Assembly: GCA_016291475.1 (NCBI GenBank)
Contig: JAEEXJ010000105.1
Span: 1-10,082, forward strand
Source: Lachnospiraceae bacterium
GTDB taxonomy: Bacteria; Bacillota_A; Clostridia; Lachnospirales; Lachnospiraceae
DNA: 10,082 bases
Direction: 5' to 3'
Shown here: positions 1,200 through 10,082 of the stretch, piece after piece
How the letters are laid out: each line of letters begins with the position of its first letter
How positions within the stretch are numbered: the stretch's first letter is position 1
The notes under the pieces: model-generated
What the model was told of the DNA's origin: nothing
Databases searched by the model: none
What the model saw: only the letters and a program-made list of their open reading frames with translations
Translations under genes and position numbers: made by a program

Positions 1200-1480
1200 A
1201 TAAAAAAATACCTGTCCCACAGTAATAGTTACTGCTGGGACAGGTAGAATGTTTACCTGCGGTGCCACCCGGCTTGGTGTGAACTCACACCCACTTAGCG
1301 CATACGACCATATGCCGAATTTGTTAACGGAGATTCACCTCCGTCTCTCATACTCCGCGTATCGCGTTTCTGATCGCCCTCAGAAGTCCATTCGGTTAAA
1401 ACACTTTTGCTCCGATCACACCATCCGAAGCTCTCTCTTAAAAGGAGGTCCTAACTTACTTACTCTTCCTCAACGGTTTA
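1200..1480 (-). promoter_or_regulatory. Tryptophan-specific T-box riboswitch leader
   Basis: The minus strand carries the T-box signature GGGTGGCACCGCAGG (1270-1256), the core of the antiterminator bulge that binds the uncharged tRNA 3' end. The segment CAGGTA just after it can pair with TACCTG at the foot of the terminator, giving the usual mutually exclusive antiterminator. Stem I elements are visible: AGTAAGTA near 1466-1459, the distal AGAGAG...GGTGTGA block near 1440-1417, and a specifier segment GAATGGAC in which TGG (1390-1388) is followed by a purine. UGG is the tryptophan codon, matching the downstream trpB. The bulge reads TGGC, whose C would pair with a G discriminator base, as expected for bacterial tRNA-Trp. 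Uncharged tRNA-Trp should permit read-through. The 5' boundary is estimated from the promoter. Confidence 0.93.
1201..1244 (-). terminator. Intrinsic terminator of the T-box leader
   Basis: On the minus strand CCTGTCCCA-G-CAGT, a seven-base loop, then ACTG-TGGGACAGG forms a 13-bp stem with one bulged G, followed by TATTTTTTTA. The 5' arm contains the bases used by the antiterminator, so this is the regulated terminator of the T-box. Confidence 0.93.
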
Positions 1481-1485
1481 TCTGA

Positions 1486-2966: not shown

Positions 2967-4082
2967 TTAGTATCTGTATTCAAATGGCGTTCCATCCGGG
3001 AATTCATGACAATAAACTATATTGTTCTCAGTGTCCAGACTGTCAAAGGCACACGGCCACAGTTCAGAGTATTTATCATCATCAGCGGAAAAATCCGTCT
3101 CATTATAACTGTAGTCATAATCATAAAACAGGAATGCACCTATCTGATAGGGATGAAGCCCTTCCTCAGCCCTGTATTCCGATGTCGTCAGAAAATCCCA
3201 AAGAAACAGATCTTCACCCTCATCTCTCAATGCCCATGTAGGATCGCAGTGATATCCCTGTCCGTCTAAAATGACGTATGTCCAGGAATGACCATCCTCC
3301 GATGAGTCAGTCGTTAATGCATCCACTCCGCACTGAAGAAGAAGATATGCGTATATTGAAGCGATTTCATTGCATATTCCACACTTTTTGGAAAACGCGC
3401 TGTAGACGCCTCCCTCATCAAGATCAATTCTGCCTGTTTCATATTTTTCATAATCGTACGTAAAATTATCTGCGATGTAAGTATACAGAGAGAGACACTT
3501 CTCAAAATCGGAATAATCGGTTTTGACACATTCATGAAGAATAGCCGTTATCTCCTCCTCAAATTTTAAACGTTTTTTATCAAACTCTTCTTTGGGTATG
3601 GCATAATATATATAACCCCTGCCATTTTCATAGAACAGTCCATCTCCATAGTAGGGACTGATGTTCACACAGGCAACAGGATATAGATTATTTAATGTAT
3701 AAGGATCAATAACCTGCCAATATGTCTCCTCATCGGGACACTCAAAAGAATCTTCTCCGGCGCGAATCGCATCTAGCATATTATAGAAAGCCTGCCAGAA
3801 TTTCTCATCACGGATCTCCGAAAGTTTTTCGGAATATACATAAGGGGTAAAAGAATAGTACTCGGATACAGAGTCTGTTTCTTCCGTCTCTGTGATATCA
3901 GACTCATCAATCTTGGATGTATCATCGCCTGTATCATCCTCATCCTCTTCAATTTCCTCAGATACTATTCGATCAATTGCGTGATTATCTTCTTCGGGAT
4001 ATCCTGTACCTCCTTTTGTCGCACAACCGGAAATCATGATCGCCGCTGCCAGAACCGCAGCTAAAGACTTGTAGAACTTCAT
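2967..4082 (-). CDS. Transglutaminase-like lipoprotein, 371 aa (paralogue A)
   Basis: Secreted lipoprotein with a transglutaminase/protease-like (papain-fold) domain. Signal peptide MKFYKSLAAVLAAAIM ends in the lipobox ISGC, so Cys20 should carry the lipid and anchor the protein to the outer face of the membrane. Residues 21-75 form an acidic, low-complexity linker. A helical region (80-200) precedes the catalytic core: Cys237 in KKCGIC, His265 in GHSW, Asp280 in HCDPTW, the triad in the family's usual order and spacing. The core Cys-His-Asp arrangement fits either a crosslinking/amidase or a peptidase-type activity; the substrate is unknown. The tail (about 310-371) is specific to this pair. 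The frame is open to 4124, but ATG 4082, with AAGGA upstream, gives a clean signal peptide and matches paralogue B. A terminator follows immediately. Confidence 0.9.
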   Translation of the reverse strand: MKFYKSLAAVLAAAIMISGCATKGGTGYPEEDNHAIDRIVSEEIEEDEDDTGDDTSKIDESDITETEETDSVSEYYSFTPYVYSEKLSEIRDEKFWQAFYNMLDAIRAGEDSFECPDEETYWQVIDPYTLNNLYPVACVNISPYYGDGLFYENGRGYIYYAIPKEEFDKKRLKFEEEITAILHECVKTDYSDFEKCLSLYTYIADNFTYDYEKYETGRIDLDEGGVYSAFSKKCGICNEIASIYAYLLLQCGVDALTTDSSEDGHSWTYVILDGQGYHCDPTWALRDEGEDLFLWDFLTTSEYRAEEGLHPYQIGAFLFYDYDYSYNETDFSADDDKYSELWPCAFDSLDTENNIVYCHEFPDGTPFEYRY

Positions 4083-4118
4083 CAATAAAACCATCCTTTT
4101 TTCATAATATGTACCCCT

Positions 4119-4160
4119 GTGCACCGATGCATAATATCACCGGTGCACTTTTATATACAA
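4119..4160 (-). promoter_or_regulatory. Candidate promoter overlapped by an inverted repeat, before paralogue A
   Basis: TTGTAT (4160-4155), an 18-base spacer and TATTAT (4136-4131), preceded by TG, form a plausible extended -10 promoter. The -10 sits in the loop of an 11-bp inverted repeat (arms 4119-4129 and 4138-4148, GTGCACCG on each side). One position pairs only as G.U on the minus strand. No U-run follows on that strand, so it does not look like a terminator for the fusion gene upstream. The layout TTGTA...TGATAYYATGC recurs before paralogue B. Promoter and operator roles are inference. Confidence 0.4.
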
Positions 4161-4199: not shown

Positions 4200-5252
4200 T
4201 CATTTATTCAAAACATAGTCTATAAGTGTCATTTTATCATTCACCGGCTTTTCCTCACCTACTCTTACAAATCCGCATTTCTCATACAGATGACAATTAG
4301 CAGGCTCCTGAAGGATAGTTTCCAGCTTCCAAGTTTTTACATCCGGCAAAAGTTCAAATGCTTTTTGGATCGCTACATACCCTATTCCGCGGTTCTGATA
4401 TTCCGGAAGAACGAAGAGCGGACTGATAAAAGAAACCTCATGCTCATCGGGATCATTATGACCTATATTGATAACTCCGACTCTTGCTCCATCCAACAGG
4501 ATAAAATAGTACTTTCTGTTTGCGACGGTAAATCTTCTTCTGATCCTCTCGGTCGGTTCAATCGCAGGAGACCCTTCATCATGATATTTCTCATAAAGAG
4601 GCATAAAACTCTTTACCTGCATTTCATGAAGAATATCTATCTCGTGCTCTTTAACTTCATCCAGTTTGATCCTGTTCACCATATCCGCATTTCCTTTATC
4701 CTTAAGATTAAATCTTTCCTTTATCATTCGTGCTACTACATCCGGTTCGAGATTTGTATTATCTATCTTGATATAATTAGCAAAAGGGATCTCTCCGTCA
4801 TTGCTGACAATTCGGTATTTTGTCTCTTCCCTGAGCATTCTTCCCTCAGATGCAACGATATCTCTCTTGGATGCTTTATTCTTAAGCCTGTTTTCTGATT
4901 TGTTTCTTTCAAGTCTGACCGCTCTGTCTGCAACCAGTTCTACATAATATACCGTTCCTCCGGTAGCTTCGAATTTATCCGTAACGGATTTAACATAATC
5001 CCAATCTTCCTTCATGTCGAAAGCCCACATATAGGTAAAGATCATTCCCTGATAATTCGTTTTCAAAAATTCTTCGAAAACCACTTCACGAAGTCTGCTG
5101 ACAGCATCTCCTTCAAATTTGCCGAAGATCTCAAGCACGGGTTCGATCATCATATGATTGTGAAAGAGCCTGAAGTCAGTGATCTTCATAAGTTCCTGAC
5201 CGACTGTCATCTTTCCGACCGCACCGCTTCCTATTATCAGTATCAGATCCAT
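4200..5252 (-). CDS. Fusion of a P-loop kinase-like domain and a GNAT acetyltransferase, 350 aa
   Basis: Two domains in one chain. Residues 1-185 form a small P-loop NTPase resembling the shikimate/nucleoside-kinase-like AAA-family proteins: Walker A GSGAVGKM (8-15), then FHNHMMIEP (30-38), and a basic lid region RLERNKSENRLKNKASKR (113-130). Residues 192-350 are a GNAT N-acetyltransferase: FISPLFVLPEYQNRGIGY (275-292) carries the acetyl-CoA pyrophosphate loop, and CHLYEKCGF (320-328) is the typical final motif. So it probably phosphorylates one small molecule and acetylates something, possibly the same ligand; neither substrate can be named. The start is ATG 5252, seven bases after AAGGAGG; the in-frame ATG at 5258 lies too close to that site. 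The terminator of a 32-codon upstream frame abuts its ribosome binding site, suggesting attenuation or independent units. Confidence 0.88.
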   Translation of the reverse strand: MDLILIIGSGAVGKMTVGQELMKITDFRLFHNHMMIEPVLEIFGKFEGDAVSRLREVVFEEFLKTNYQGMIFTYMWAFDMKEDWDYVKSVTDKFEATGGTVYYVELVADRAVRLERNKSENRLKNKASKRDIVASEGRMLREETKYRIVSNDGEIPFANYIKIDNTNLEPDVVARMIKERFNLKDKGNADMVNRIKLDEVKEHEIDILHEMQVKSFMPLYEKYHDEGSPAIEPTERIRRRFTVANRKYYFILLDGARVGVINIGHNDPDEHEVSFISPLFVLPEYQNRGIGYVAIQKAFELLPDVKTWKLETILQEPANCHLYEKCGFVRVGEEKPVNDKMTLIDYVLNK

Positions 5253-5264
5253 AAACATACCTCC

Positions 5265-5304
5265 TTAATAAAATAACCGCCCATCCTGCAGGATAAGCGG
5301 TTAT
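5265..5304 (-). terminator. Intrinsic terminator/attenuator before the kinase-GNAT gene
   Basis: On the minus strand ATAACCGC-TT-ATCC, loop TGCA, GGAT-GG-GCGGTTAT pairs completely if the two central T-G positions are G.U wobbles; on the plus strand these would be A/C mismatches, so the structure is built for minus-strand RNA. TTTATT follows, then directly the AAGGAGG of the kinase-GNAT gene. It sits 31 bp after the stop of the 32-codon frame. Confidence 0.75.
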
Positions 5305-5334
5305 CATCTACATCTTGATATTGGAAAACTGCTC

Positions 5335-5433
5335 TTATCTGCTACCCGGATATTTACATACACCATTAAGACCATATACAGCGTACATGGAAATAATAGA
5401 AATGTATGAATATCTCATAGCGTTATTATTCAA
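5335..5433 (-). CDS. Putative 32-aa peptide or leader peptide
   Basis: TTG 5433 lies eight bases after GGAG (AAGGAG) and opens 32 codons to TAA at 5335. The product starts MNNNAMRYSYISIISMYAVY and ends GLNGVCKYPGSR: an aromatic and aliphatic centre, a single Cys26, and a basic C-terminus. An ATG at codon 6 (5418) is an alternative start with poorer spacing. Its own near-consensus promoter lies upstream and an intrinsic terminator follows, so it is a self-contained transcription unit. It may be a secreted or modified signalling peptide, a small membrane-active peptide, or a leader peptide whose translation controls read-through into the kinase-GNAT gene. No modification enzyme or exporter is adjacent. 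I do not recognise the family. Confidence 0.55.
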   Translation of the reverse strand: MNNNAMRYSYISIISMYAVYGLNGVCKYPGSR

Positions 5434-5461
5434 GAGTGTATCTCCTTAAAATATTATGGTG

Positions 5462-5490
5462 ATTTTATATCCGAGCTGAAAATATGTCAA
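5462..5490 (-). promoter_or_regulatory. Near-consensus sigma-A promoter for the 32-codon frame
   Basis: TTGACA (5490-5485), exactly 17 bases, then TAAAAT (5467-5462): a perfect -35 and a five-of-six -10. It is one of the two strongest promoters in the window and starts 26 bp after the stop of the upstream lipoprotein gene. The first gene downstream is the 32-aa frame, about 25 bp from the predicted start site. Confidence 0.8.
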
Positions 5491-5516
5491 TAGTTTATTA
5501 ATATACCTGTTGCGTT

Positions 5517-6620
5517 TCAGATATCATACTTGATCTCATACTTTTCATCCGTAAAAAAGTCCGTACAGAATAAAGTATTGTTTTCAATGTCTATACTGTC
5601 ATAGGTACTGCTCCAGGCAAGTAAGAACTTATCATCATCCGCGGGAAAAGAAATATTTTCAGGGAAATGTAAATCTACATCCAGATACAACGGTACATCC
5701 AACGTAGTCATATCGAATCCTTCATTTGTTCTGGCTTGTTCCGTTTCCATAAAATACCAAAGTCTTATCGGATCATCCTTTTCTGTAAGTCCCCATGTCG
5801 GATCACAATGGTATCCCTCACCGTTTATGGTTACATATGTCCATGCATGATATATGTCGTCATTACTCTGAATTTCCAATGCATCTACACCGCACTGAAG
5901 AAGCAGATATGCATATGCGGATCCGAGTTCACAGCATATTCCGGTTCTTTCTTTGATCGTATGATAAGTTGATCCTTCATTATCACGCATTGGATCTTCA
6001 TCATATTCATACGTGAAGTTGTAACACATATATTCATAAAGAGCCATACACTTTTCAAAATCGGAATAATCGGTTCTGACAGTCTGCCTCAATATTTCTT
6101 CGATGTCCTCTTCGAATTTGATTCTTCTATCCTCGAATTCTTCCTTGGATATGGCATACTCTATTCTTCCGATACCATTCTCATAGGCCGGTTTATCATC
6201 GCCGCTGTATTCTGTGATAAACATGCATGCAATCGGATAGAGATGATTCATGGTAATGCCATCTAACAGAAGATGATAGGTTTCTTCGTCACAGCATTCG
6301 AAAGTATCTTCTCCGCTTCGGATCGCATCTATCAGATTATATAATGATGACCAGTAGTTCTCATCGCGAATCTCGGATAATTTGCCTGAATATACGTGAG
6401 GTTCAAAAGAATAATATTCCGAAGCTATTTCTGTAACAGTTTCTTCCGCAACCTCGTAACCGGATTCCGATCCCGTCAAATCTTCTTCGCCTTTAATATG
6501 AGCGACAAATTCACGAGGTTGTGTTTTGACACTTTCCGGTTCGACGCTATCTGATTTGGCGCAACCGGTTAGCAAAACCGCTGCCGTTAAAAAGATTGAT
6601 ACTGCTTTGTAGAACTTCAT
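5517..6620 (-). CDS. Transglutaminase-like lipoprotein, 367 aa (paralogue B)
   Basis: Same architecture as the 371-aa protein on the other side of the kinase-GNAT gene. Signal peptide MKFYKAVSIFLTAAVL with lipobox LTGC (Cys20), an acidic linker to about residue 65, a helical stretch with the shared blocks LSEIRDE and TDYSDFEKC, then the catalytic core: Cys229 in RTGICC, His258 in YHAW, Asp273 in HCDPTW. The block AYLLLQCGVDALE is nearly identical in both. The triad is complete, so the protein should be an active papain-fold transglutaminase or peptidase on the outer membrane face; the substrate is unknown. The linker and the region around 205-220 (EDPMRDNEGS) differ most from paralogue A. ATG 6620 is chosen over the longer frame to 6695 because AAGGAAGG lies just upstream and the signal peptide starts there. 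Confidence 0.9.
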   Translation of the reverse strand: MKFYKAVSIFLTAAVLLTGCAKSDSVEPESVKTQPREFVAHIKGEEDLTGSESGYEVAEETVTEIASEYYSFEPHVYSGKLSEIRDENYWSSLYNLIDAIRSGEDTFECCDEETYHLLLDGITMNHLYPIACMFITEYSGDDKPAYENGIGRIEYAISKEEFEDRRIKFEEDIEEILRQTVRTDYSDFEKCMALYEYMCYNFTYEYDEDPMRDNEGSTYHTIKERTGICCELGSAYAYLLLQCGVDALEIQSNDDIYHAWTYVTINGEGYHCDPTWGLTEKDDPIRLWYFMETEQARTNEGFDMTTLDVPLYLDVDLHFPENISFPADDDKFLLAWSSTYDSIDIENNTLFCTDFFTDEKYEIKYDI

Positions 6621-6644
6621 AAAAAACACCTTCCTTACAAATAA

Positions 6645-6676
6645 ATAGCGAAGAATATCGGTGTATTCTTCGCTAT
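6645..6676 (-). terminator. Perfect 13-bp hairpin before paralogue B, terminator or leader element
   Basis: ATAGCGAAGAATA (6645-6657) and TATTCTTCGCTAT (6664-6676) are exact inverted copies around a six-base loop. On the minus strand TTATTTG follows, a weak U-tract, and then the AAGGAAGG ribosome binding site of the lipoprotein gene. It may end transcripts from the coiled-coil gene (stop at 6748) or act as a 5' leader stem of the lipoprotein message. Confidence 0.6.
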
Positions 6677-6693
6677 ACCACCAATACCTGTGC

Positions 6694-6722
6694 ATGGTAT
6701 CAGTTACTCTATTTAATTACAA
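6694..6722 (-). promoter_or_regulatory. Candidate promoter of paralogue B
   Basis: TTGTAA (6722-6717), 17 bases, then TACCAT (6699-6694), preceded by TG as an extended -10. The element order TTGTA...TGATACCATGCA, followed nearby by CACAGG, resembles the region before paralogue A and suggests that the duplication included the promoter. The -10 is weak, so the call is tentative. Confidence 0.4.
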
Positions 6723-8314: not shown

Positions 8315-8716
8315 TTATTTCATACAGATGATCTTGCTGATTGCTTCTTTAACTTCCTCTTCGGAGATTTCCGAATCGGAATCAAACAGCAATAATCCGT
8401 TCGGATATTCGTGCCCGTTCATAATCCCTCTGAGATAAACCTGAGCTATATGGTTGACGCATACTCTGCAATCATACAGGTCTTTTAAAACCGATGCGGG
8501 GGTAATATCTTCTATATCTCTGATACTCAATACATTTTTCATATACATATGAAGAATCCTTGCGGCATCTTTACGTGAAAGTGTTAACTCAGAGTGTTCT
8601 GATTCATATCCATCTATGATTCCGGATTGATGTGCCTTTTCAATACTGCCGGCTATTTTTTCTCCATATAAATAGTTTACGAACTCATCAAGTTTCACTG
8701 AGGAATTATTCTCCAT
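8315..8716 (-). CDS. Small cytosolic protein with degenerate SLH-like repeats, 133 aa
   Basis: No signal peptide. Two stretches resemble S-layer homology (SLH) repeats: residues 22-55 (SIEKAHQSGIIDGYESEHSE..., then LTLSRKDAARIL) and 75-125 (VLKDLYD..., HIAQVYLRGIMNGHEYPNG, then FDSDSEISEEEVKEAI). They follow the SLH order of helix, G-I-x-x-G turn, polar stretch, 'x-L-S-R-x-D-A-A' helix. True SLH proteins are exported and bind cell wall; this one lacks export signals and the usual three full repeats, so it may be a cytosolic relative. CRVC (83-86) is a possible metal or redox pair. The start overlaps the end of the alpha-galactosidase gene by 22 bp and has no clear ribosome binding site, so translation is probably coupled to that gene. 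The SLH relation is by eye and moderate. Confidence 0.78.
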   Translation of the reverse strand: MENNSSVKLDEFVNYLYGEKIAGSIEKAHQSGIIDGYESEHSELTLSRKDAARILHMYMKNVLSIRDIEDITPASVLKDLYDCRVCVNHIAQVYLRGIMNGHEYPNGLLLFDSDSEISEEEVKEAISKIICMK

Positions 8717-10082
8717 ACAACCGAGTCACATGCTTTTAATTCAGCCACTTCGAACTGTCCGCATTCGTTTGCGTATTCATCTCCGCTCCAAAGATCCTTT
8801 ACCGAATATGACGATGCATTTTCAAATACATCGGGATCTGTCATCTTACCGCGAAGAAATTTTATAATGAGATTTTTATCAATACAGATTTTCTCATGAG
8901 AATCTTCTGTATCGAGATTTATAAATGCAATCGCCACGCTTTTGTCCGAGAGAGGCTTTGCCAGTACATCAATTCGCTTATTATCGCGCAGATAGACCTT
9001 ATCGGGATTATCGCTTTCAAGTGTGGAGAAGATTCTCTTAGCCTGAACTCCCAGAGGATCCTGATTTAGATCTATCAGCTCTTTATTGGAGATGATCTTA
9101 TGTATAGGATCTCCTTTCTCAACTCGTCTCAGATCAAGTCCAAGCATAAGAGGAGAATTGAGCATACACCACATTGCCATATGACTCCTGCACATGGTTT
9201 CATCCAGTCCGGTCATTCCGATCATCATCATATCAGGATCATTCCACCCTTTGGTAAGTCCTGCATACTCGTCCATGATGACTGCTTTGTTATACTGATT
9301 TGTAACCCCTGTTGTATAATCCCCTGACCAGTTTGCATGTCCCGGATCTCCGTCGGATCCAACCTGGAAAGTAATATCGTTAAGTATCCTCCATGAATCA
9401 CCTACTTTGTATCCCCAATTCTGCGGCTGAGTCTTTCCCCATTCACAGATAGACAGTAATATATCCTTTCTCGGAGAACCGTTCCTGAAAGCTTCTTCAA
9501 ACCCTTTGACAAGTTCCGCGTATGAGCAAAGAGTATTCTCCTGTCGTCTGTGATTCATAAGACGTAAAACATTTTCACCTTTTTTCAATTTGATCTTTAT
9601 TACAGGTGACTGTATAAAAGTTGTTTTGTTTTCCGACTCGGGAAGGAGATCATCATAGTAATACTCGGCGTTTTCTCCTTCACCCATTGCAACCTGAAGC
9701 CAGCATCCCACGTCCGGTTCTCTTCCGGCCGCATACATAACGGTCAGATCCGCTTCACCTGCTTCATATGAGGATATATTAAATCTGAGTTCACTGCTTA
9801 AAATTCCTACAGGGGTATTATCAGGCCCCGTTCCATCGTATGTTCCTATTCCCTTTACGAAATCAACACCATCTTCTTCCGCAGTAAACGCTCCGTTTCC
9901 GAACAGCTCTCCGTCAGATACCGCATCATATGAAAGCTCCAAACCGCACCCTTTTATGCATATACTTTTTATAGCGGGAGCGTATGTATATTTTGCATTT
10001 TCGGAATTTGAGAACGTAGCGTTGTCCCAGAGGTAATAGCAATTGTCGACTTTGATAAAATCAATATCCCAATCTATATATG
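8695..10082 (-). CDS. GH27 alpha-galactosidase with inserted beta domain (5' end cut by window)
   Basis: Glycoside hydrolase family 27, hydrolysing terminal alpha-galactosyl (or alpha-N-acetylgalactosaminyl) residues by a retaining mechanism. The visible part is 461 residues and the frame runs off the right edge. DFIKVDNCY at the very start holds the nucleophile Asp (codon 10047-10045). SICEWG (fragment residues 210-215), GDSWRILNDI with the likely acid/base Asp (235) and GWNDPDMMMIG (278-288) follow the GH27 order, then a C-terminal beta domain ending SVVWRIIPQ. Between nucleophile and SICEWG about 160 residues are inserted (about 21-182), with SYEAGEADLTVMYAAGREPD and IKIKLKKGENVLRLMNH, resembling CBM35-like carbohydrate-binding sandwiches. 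The N-terminus is missing, so localisation is unknown. It heads the visible operon with the SLH-like protein and the PfkB kinase. Confidence 0.92.
   Translation of the reverse strand, partial: YIDWDIDFIKVDNCYYLWDNATFSNSENAKYTYAPAIKSICIKGCGLELSYDAVSDGELFGNGAFTAEEDGVDFVKGIGTYDGTGPDNTPVGILSSELRFNISSYEAGEADLTVMYAAGREPDVGCWLQVAMGEGENAEYYYDDLLPESENKTTFIQSPVIKIKLKKGENVLRLMNHRRQENTLCSYAELVKGFEEAFRNGSPRKDILLSICEWGKTQPQNWGYKVGDSWRILNDITFQVGSDGDPGHANWSGDYTTGVTNQYNKAVIMDEYAGLTKGWNDPDMMMIGMTGLDETMCRSHMAMWCMLNSPLMLGLDLRRVEKGDPIHKIISNKELIDLNQDPLGVQAKRIFSTLESDNPDKVYLRDNKRIDVLAKPLSDKSVAIAFINLDTEDSHEKICIDKNLIIKFLRGKMTDPDVFENASSYSVKDLWSGDEYANECGQFEVAELKACDSVVWRIIPQ

Follow-up and report, generated by a model that had tools for sequence, protein, structure and literature searches.

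The genomic locus

The window, that is, the whole 10,082-nucleotide stretch of DNA analysed here, encodes on its minus strand a kinase-GNAT fusion protein (4200-5258), flanked on either side by two paralogous transglutaminase-like proteins (2967-4124 and 5517-6695, minus strand), the second of which, paralogue B, lies upstream. The gap between paralogue B and the kinase-GNAT gene measures 258 bp (5259-5516), not the 264 bp given by an earlier sequence-only reading of this DNA, and holds the compact leader unit listed in Table 1, whose terminator sits directly before the Shine-Dalgarno (SD) sequence of the kinase-GNAT gene. Specifically, the near-consensus promoter with its 17-bp spacer, the AAGGAG ribosome binding site and the 32-codon frame described by that reading are all in place, the frame opening with a TTG start codon. 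Its G.U-compensated terminator stands in part: the hairpin is present, with 15 pairs including G.U, but the T tract (TTATTTTATT) is weak and a terminator scan made no call there.

Table 1. Features of the leader locus in the window (all on the minus strand)
Feature	Positions	Sequence or composition	Basis or note
Promoter	5462-5490	-35 TTGACA (5490-5485), 17-nt spacer, -10 TAAAAT (5467-5462)	11/12 consensus matches
Shine-Dalgarno of leader ORF	5442-5447	AAGGAG	Sequence
Helix P1, 5' strand (segment 1)	5447-5442 and 5436-5431	AAGGAG and start region CTCTTG	
Leader ORF	5335-5433	TTG start, 32 codons and TAA; peptide MNNNAMRYSYISIISMYAVYGLNGVCKYPGSR	
Putative antiterminator strand, core (segment 2)	5334-5342	GCAGATAAG; stop codon (5337-5335) inside	Complementarity and permutation
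Complement of segment 2	5297-5288	CTTATCCTGC	Complementary to GCAGATAAG
Intrinsic terminator	5272-5305	5' arm 5305-5291 (segment 3), loop TGCA, 3' arm 5286-5272 (segment 4)	
Kinase-GNAT gene (putative regulated gene)	4200-5258	352 aa	P-loop kinase-like N-terminal part and C-terminal GNAT domain (about 196-352)

Taken alone, the leader ORF is weak evidence, because ten ORFs of at least 20 aa overlap positions 5000-5700, the leader frame and both genes counted in. Six promoters with at least 9/12 matches were found near the leader against 4.9 expected by chance, and 24% of shuffled upstream sequences reach 9/12 if any spacer of 16-18 is allowed. The leader nevertheless rises above chance because it is conserved, with a promoter of at least 9/12 and a 17-nt spacer in 18 of the 20 leaders described below, and because its fold beats every shuffle: leader and terminator hairpin together reach -56.6 kcal/mol against -40.6 +/- 3.9 kcal/mol for shuffled sequence (z -4.16; 0/200 shuffles better). 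Additionally, a purine-rich stretch precedes the start codon in all 20 leaders. Against Rfam, nothing in the window scores up to the gathering threshold of a family, and neither does the leader at 26 further loci. Elsewhere in the window, a T-box leader (1233-1482, minus strand; 89.4 bits, E 2.7e-20) falls just below its gathering score of 93, and the gene downstream of it is presumably tryptophan-synthase-beta-like.

Distribution of the leader family

Peptide-profile, covariance-model and synteny searches bring the leaders of the window type to 20, the window included, in 12 genera of one family (g1, g5, g8, g66, g108, g124, g131, g137, g223, g233, g322 and g328, the window being counted in g1 with its nearest relative); three clear copies beyond these were found by the covariance model only. 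A leader was judged real by its open frame, its terminator and its downstream gene. Searching the nearest genus (31 genomes) for the peptide at E 0.1 gave eight genomes with a match, two of them due to chance and six real (G001, G029, G013, G017, G008 and the divergent G015), and a seventh leader (G016) was found by inspection upstream of its kinase-GNAT gene. Across the family, a first profile search (E 0.03) matched 19 of 397 genomes, seven judged real, and a second, better profile (E 0.02) matched 17 of 397, with 12 judged real and one locus (L116) left uninspected. At the level of the class, a peptide search at E 0.05 matched 27 of 391 genomes, at 28 places besides the G001 leader, and the eight places inspected were all judged chance.

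A pattern scan of genome contigs yielded 13 stretches, five of which are real leaders, each before a GNAT-containing gene; the other eight, whose frames run from 111 residues to 200 or more, were judged chance. The covariance model, run on 150 genomes of the family, gave 17 matches in 15 genomes, comprising six known leaders, three that are clear and new and eight that are weak (E 2e-5 to 4e-3), and it scores the G016 and G461 leaders, which lie outside the model, at E 3e-14 and 1e-12. No tblastn match at E 10 turned up for the G462 peptide in plasmids or phages, or for the window peptide in plasmids, and viral contigs gave 0 matches to the terminator pattern.

The carriers that bear names are Oliverpabstia intestinalis BSM-380-WT-5A, Lachnospiraceae bacterium P6A3 and three Lachnospiraceae MAGs. 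The Oliverpabstia leader peptide corresponds to a protein cluster on 531 contigs, for which the only name given is 'hypothetical protein', and one of seven protein clusters near it has a broken frame. A protein cluster on two contigs (P0127) carries a frame-broken form of the same peptide. Near the G165 leader, a cobalamin riboswitch lies at L092 2426-2615.

Genes behind the leader

A GNAT gene lies downstream of 15 of the 20 leaders. In ten it is the kinase-GNAT fusion (window, G001, G029, G013, G017, G008, G016, G035, G362 and G445, the last three assigned by N-terminal sequence and length), and in five it is a GNAT without the kinase part (G015; G462, with two GNAT stretches; G100; and G461 and G158, both assigned by sequence with no domain scan). 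The remaining leaders precede other genes: a SAM methyltransferase in G356, the same N-terminal sequence in G257 and its first residues near a contig end in G267; in G165 a protein that has no Pfam match on 180 residues and that we take to be phosphodiesterase-like; and in G038 a 134-aa protein of no recognised kind. Two further covariance-model copies give G035 three leaders in one genome, one of the extra copies standing before an oxidoreductase resembling pyrroline-5-carboxylate reductase and the other 358 nt before a gene that is presumably nucleoside-phosphorylase-like, and a copy in G142 precedes a relative of the G038 protein. The 134-138-aa protein thus appears behind the leader in two genera (L091 and L132), its L091 copy having no Pfam match. 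In G029 (L002), the kinase-GNAT gene is divided into one frame of 212 aa and another of 88 aa, and the leader ORF is open.

The upstream neighbour varies, being paralogue B in the window and G001 and a 189-aa gene in G029, G013, G017 and G008, so that the leader unit goes with the GNAT gene and not with the gene upstream. The terminator is the leader's own and the unit stays with the kinase-GNAT gene when the neighbour differs, which bears out the sequence-only reading where it offered a leader peptide as one option. Within the genus, 16 genomes have a kinase-GNAT or GNAT match at E 1e-20: seven carry the leader, three are cut by a contig end and six have none (G004, G014, G002, G006, G030 and G028), so that the enzyme also occurs where the switch is missing. 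As to the GNAT substrate, PaiA and SpeG were matched, and a streptothricin acetyltransferase weakly, none of them decisively.

Pairing between leader and terminator

The terminator begins 24-51 nt past the stop codon in 20/20 leaders, a count that is not independent, since the terminator had itself counted towards accepting a leader. Its 5' arm contains TATC in 19 of the 20 and TTGTC in G158, and its helix is 98.6% paired across 18 aligned leaders. In the second profile search, a terminator of the leader type follows ten of the 11 places at E <=1e-3, though it was absent from the query; six of the 11 places were in the profile, and the one remaining place, in G112, falls within an 864-aa frame and was left uninspected.

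The stop region of the leader can pair with the 5' arm of this terminator, and the strength of that pairing was measured by reshuffling which leader goes with which terminator in 15 divergent leaders, the window being kept and its five close genus relatives dropped. Own pairs sum to -194.3 kcal/mol against -146.4 +/- 8.9 kcal/mol for permuted ones, and to -152.5 against -121.1 +/- 7.0 kcal/mol with a shorter arm, with 0/20,000 permutations as good in either case. The competing helix P1, a candidate anti-antiterminator in which the start region pairs with the stop region, sums to -166.3 against -134.2 +/- 9.6 (8/20,000) and so shows co-evolution too. Three controls, which set the arm against the mid-ORF or the promoter region and the start region against the mid-ORF, are null (z 0.47, -0.02 and 0.87). 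An antiterminator that is mutually exclusive with the terminator is thereby found collectively, and the sequences indicate that the leader and the terminator 5' arm have co-evolved. This evidence is collective: against 500 dinucleotide shuffles each, the 5% level is passed by four of 20 single leaders with the short arm and seven with the longer one, the window itself fails it (matched by 132/500 and 65/500 shuffles, respectively), and the pairings of G165, G356 and G100 look like chance.

Folding calculations for RNA whose terminator 3' arm has yet to be made indicate how a ribosome might shift this balance. With the start region and first ten codons blocked, 6.0-11.9 arm bases pair with the stop region in 15/15 leaders, whereas with the stop region blocked only 0-1.9 arm bases are paired in 14 of the 15, the exception being G461 at 8.3; the window has 11.0 arm bases paired in the first case and 1.3 in the second. 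The naked RNA already favours the antiterminator (at least six arm bases) in 11 of 15 leaders, which makes P1 a weak competitor. From this calculation, which covers one stall position, the predicted OFF signal is therefore a ribosome at the stop codon, and the switch is predicted to be ON when a ribosome stalls before that point or, for most members, when the RNA carries none.

Probable translation of the frame, and its RNA hairpin

An SD sequence, a start codon and an open frame are found in 20/20 leaders. The sequence-only reading had asked beforehand whether the frame is broken in relatives; it is open in 15/15 divergent leaders, where the other two forward frames are open in 1/15 each and the antisense frames in 3, 3 and 1 of 15, a comparison biased in that leader ORFs had been picked as open. 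The 11 matches made by the covariance model only are a less biased check, because they were not, like the 15 ORFs, selected as open: all seven that exceed 180 nt have an SD, a start and 28-44 open codons (L132, L133, L134, L135, L141, L142 and L140, the last identical to L158; four of them belong to the weak rtcB group below), and the remaining four, all below 165 nt, have only 1-13-codon frames within the match. The leader frame thus looks translated, as a sensor rather than as a product.

The encoded peptide shows no excess of synonymous change: in six independent leader pairs, 20 single changes are synonymous where 17.3 would be expected (P 0.26, at low power), and codon positions 1-3 differ at 64, 47 and 64 sites. 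Within the genus, third positions at unpaired columns differ in 53/272 pairwise comparisons against 15/257 and 8/284 for the other two; these comparisons are not independent. Across 13 aligned peptides, G23 never varies and Y10 and V27 hardly do, and 11 of the peptides keep a cysteine at the same position. Of the single Cys and the GVCKYPGSR stretch that the sequence-only reading had singled out, the cysteine persists, but VCK occupies the motif position in only five of 15 divergent leaders.

The codons also take part in a hairpin that runs through the ORF. In window numbering, this hairpin joins codons 4-6 to the last codons, codon 10 to codons 26-27, and the stretch at codons ~15-17 to that around the [HY]G codons. 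Hairpin and terminator together have 91.3% of alignment cells paired, against 29-45% for slid structures, and both partners have changed in 59 cells, where shuffles give 19.3 +/- 5.3 (0/500), a count favoured by the fact that the structure was predicted from the same 18-sequence alignment (A5, which leaves out G016 and G461). The apparent conservation of the peptide may be owed largely to this hairpin. A register in which the whole ORF hairpin follows the codons breaks down in one helix, holding in 17/18 leaders for helix 1, 0/18 for helix 2 and 18/18 for helix 3.

A proposed attenuator and its alternatives

These data are compatible with a model in which a ribosome-mediated transcription attenuator controls the kinase-GNAT gene, which we consider very probable on the sequence evidence; the 32-aa frame is probably the sensing part of an attenuator for the GNAT enzyme rather than a free-standing peptide gene. 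Specifically, RNA polymerase would start near 5455 and produce a leader RNA carrying the 32-codon ORF. If the ORF is translated freely to its stop codon, the terminating ribosome would cover the antiterminator strand, the terminator would fold, and transcription would end before the kinase-GNAT gene. If the ribosome instead stalls within the ORF, the antiterminator strand would stay free and could pair with the terminator 5' arm during its synthesis, so that the resulting antiterminator would allow the kinase-GNAT gene to be transcribed. Function in cells and direction of the switch are what we infer from this model, and its trigger would be less a single compound than a general stalling of translation, such as ribosome-targeting drugs may cause.

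The nearest variant of this scheme is an arrest peptide, whose nascent chain (around HG[FL]..VC[KE], GVCK in the window) would bind a small molecule in the exit tunnel and stall the ribosome at a fixed codon, with the enzyme acting on that molecule. The kept G23, Y10, V27 and cysteine would suit such a peptide, as would the third-position skew within the genus and, in the window, G015 and G462, the 10-11 nt (judged by eye) that separate GTATGTAAA from the antiterminator strand. Yet there is no synonymous excess, some third-position changes in the genus swap N for K (by eye), the kept residues partly fall on paired codons, the VCK motif is mostly missing and G158 stops straight after V, and the downstream genes are unrelated, all of which leaves a compound-specific arrest rather unlikely. 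A stall caused by scarce charged tRNA for tyrosine or valine, as in trp-type leaders, appears very unlikely: tyrosine does account for 59 of 508 residues and occurs in 15/15 leaders, and valine for 52 of 508, but the commonest residue changes from leader to leader (Y, V, T, N, I or E) with none dominated by one, no gene for tyrosine or valine biosynthesis was seen behind the leaders, and TAC and GTA are complementary, so that the hairpin may account for part of the excess.

Two further readings dispense with the ribosome as a sensor. An untranslated structured RNA or ligand-binding riboswitch with an incidental ORF would agree with the covarying hairpin, the absence of a synonymous excess, the open antisense frames and the four short covariance-only matches that lack an ORF; the SD, start and open frame in every divergent leader and in every longer covariance-only match, and the absence at the leader of any Rfam match up to the gathering score, nevertheless make it highly improbable. 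The possibility that the unit is a free-standing small gene, as the sequence-only reading proposed with its 'self-contained peptide unit' for a signalling or modified peptide or a toxin, draws on its own promoter, SD and terminator. It fares worst: no clear amino-acid constraint is seen in a test of low power, the terminator stands between the ORF and the next gene in the 20 leaders, the antiterminator has co-evolved, the unit stays with the downstream gene, and seven larger frames of the window (the trpB-like frame and the 8695-10080 frame left out) contain no export or peptide-modification family, so that we regard such a gene as extremely improbable.

Comparison with known systems

Terminator/antiterminator switches before a gene are familiar from T-box and amino-acid leader attenuators, from which the present family departs: Rfam gives no T-box match at the leader, and no one codon dominates. 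Among switches that depend on an upstream ORF (uORF), the vmlR leader of B. subtilis comprises a uORF, an anti-antiterminator, an antiterminator and an intrinsic terminator; when a ribosome stalls on this uORF, which encodes the tripeptide MIN, the antiterminator can form, and mutation of the start codon nearly abolishes expression (PMC9226507). The logic proposed here is the same in that a stalled ribosome would lead to antitermination, here on sequence grounds; unlike in vmlR, the present ORFs span 27-42 codons, contain a covarying hairpin and end in a stop region that would itself be the antiterminator strand. The rli80-hflXr leader of Listeria monocytogenes has a 14-aa ORF whose peptide carries RLR, the macrolide-leader motif (PMC6310831). 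That system shares with ours a small ORF in the anti-antiterminator region, putative in our case, and a terminator/antiterminator choice, but the window has no +X+ triplet, and only two of 15 leaders have one (RYK and RLK). The E. coli toiL uORF of topAI responds to several classes of ribosome-targeting antibiotics and acts on the ribosome-binding site and on Rho-dependent termination, not on an intrinsic terminator (PMC12121999); it resembles the proposed role of the present leaders as a uORF that serves as a sensor and differs from them in that they have an intrinsic terminator.

In the accounts cited here, vmlR, hflXr and toiL each belong to one gene or operon, whereas the present leader family precedes several gene families. 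What would be new is one uORF attenuator family common to unrelated genes, with the stop region itself as the antiterminator. A literature search, judged mostly from titles and with subscription papers and preprints outside its scope, found no report of this family. If the attenuator reading is true, the downstream enzyme would serve stress or detoxification, and a drug- or stress-handling role would be suggested for the uncharacterised kinase-GNAT fusion. If, furthermore, the leader family is reused before several gene families, it would point to a set of genes that these bacteria of gut and rumen turn on in response to stalled ribosomes. The results also present a caution for small-ORF surveys, as attenuator leaders can pass for peptide genes.

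A possible distant form before rtcB

Six of the eight weak covariance matches (L133-L137 and L140) lie upstream of rtcB, identified by a Pfam search at the same place for four (G033, G113, G150 and G157) and by sequence only for two; L138 and L139 do not. A survey for rtcB found 38 places in 31 of 100 genomes. Among the 30 loci fetched, the covariance model matches eight at E <0.004, and 11 match the terminator pattern; one of the latter (L147) was dropped by eye, and the other ten have an SD-preceded ORF before the terminator, with another frame coming next behind the terminator in L167. Six of the 11 scanned rtcB loci contain tRNA genes, and these look like a tRNA-damage repair operon under attenuation. 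The link to rtcB fits a translation-stress trigger, while the homology of the two leader types is uncertain. On the widest view, the leaders would be portable translation sensors, set before GNATs, the kinase-GNAT, the methyltransferase and other genes, and in a distant form before rtcB RNA-ligase operons, in which tRNA genes are frequent, together forming an RNA-run ribosome-stalling regulon of Lachnospiraceae; we offer this tentatively, as a possibility less likely than not.

The six loci with tRNA genes (L157, L159, L160, L162, L163 and L168) share an arrangement of leader ORF and terminator followed by rtcB, with the tRNA genes before rtcB, after it or both. Those before rtcB are for Lys (L160 and L168), for Ser, Lys and Leu (L162) and for Ser, Lys, Trp and Leu (L163), and those after it are for Glu, Tyr, Ser and Arg.
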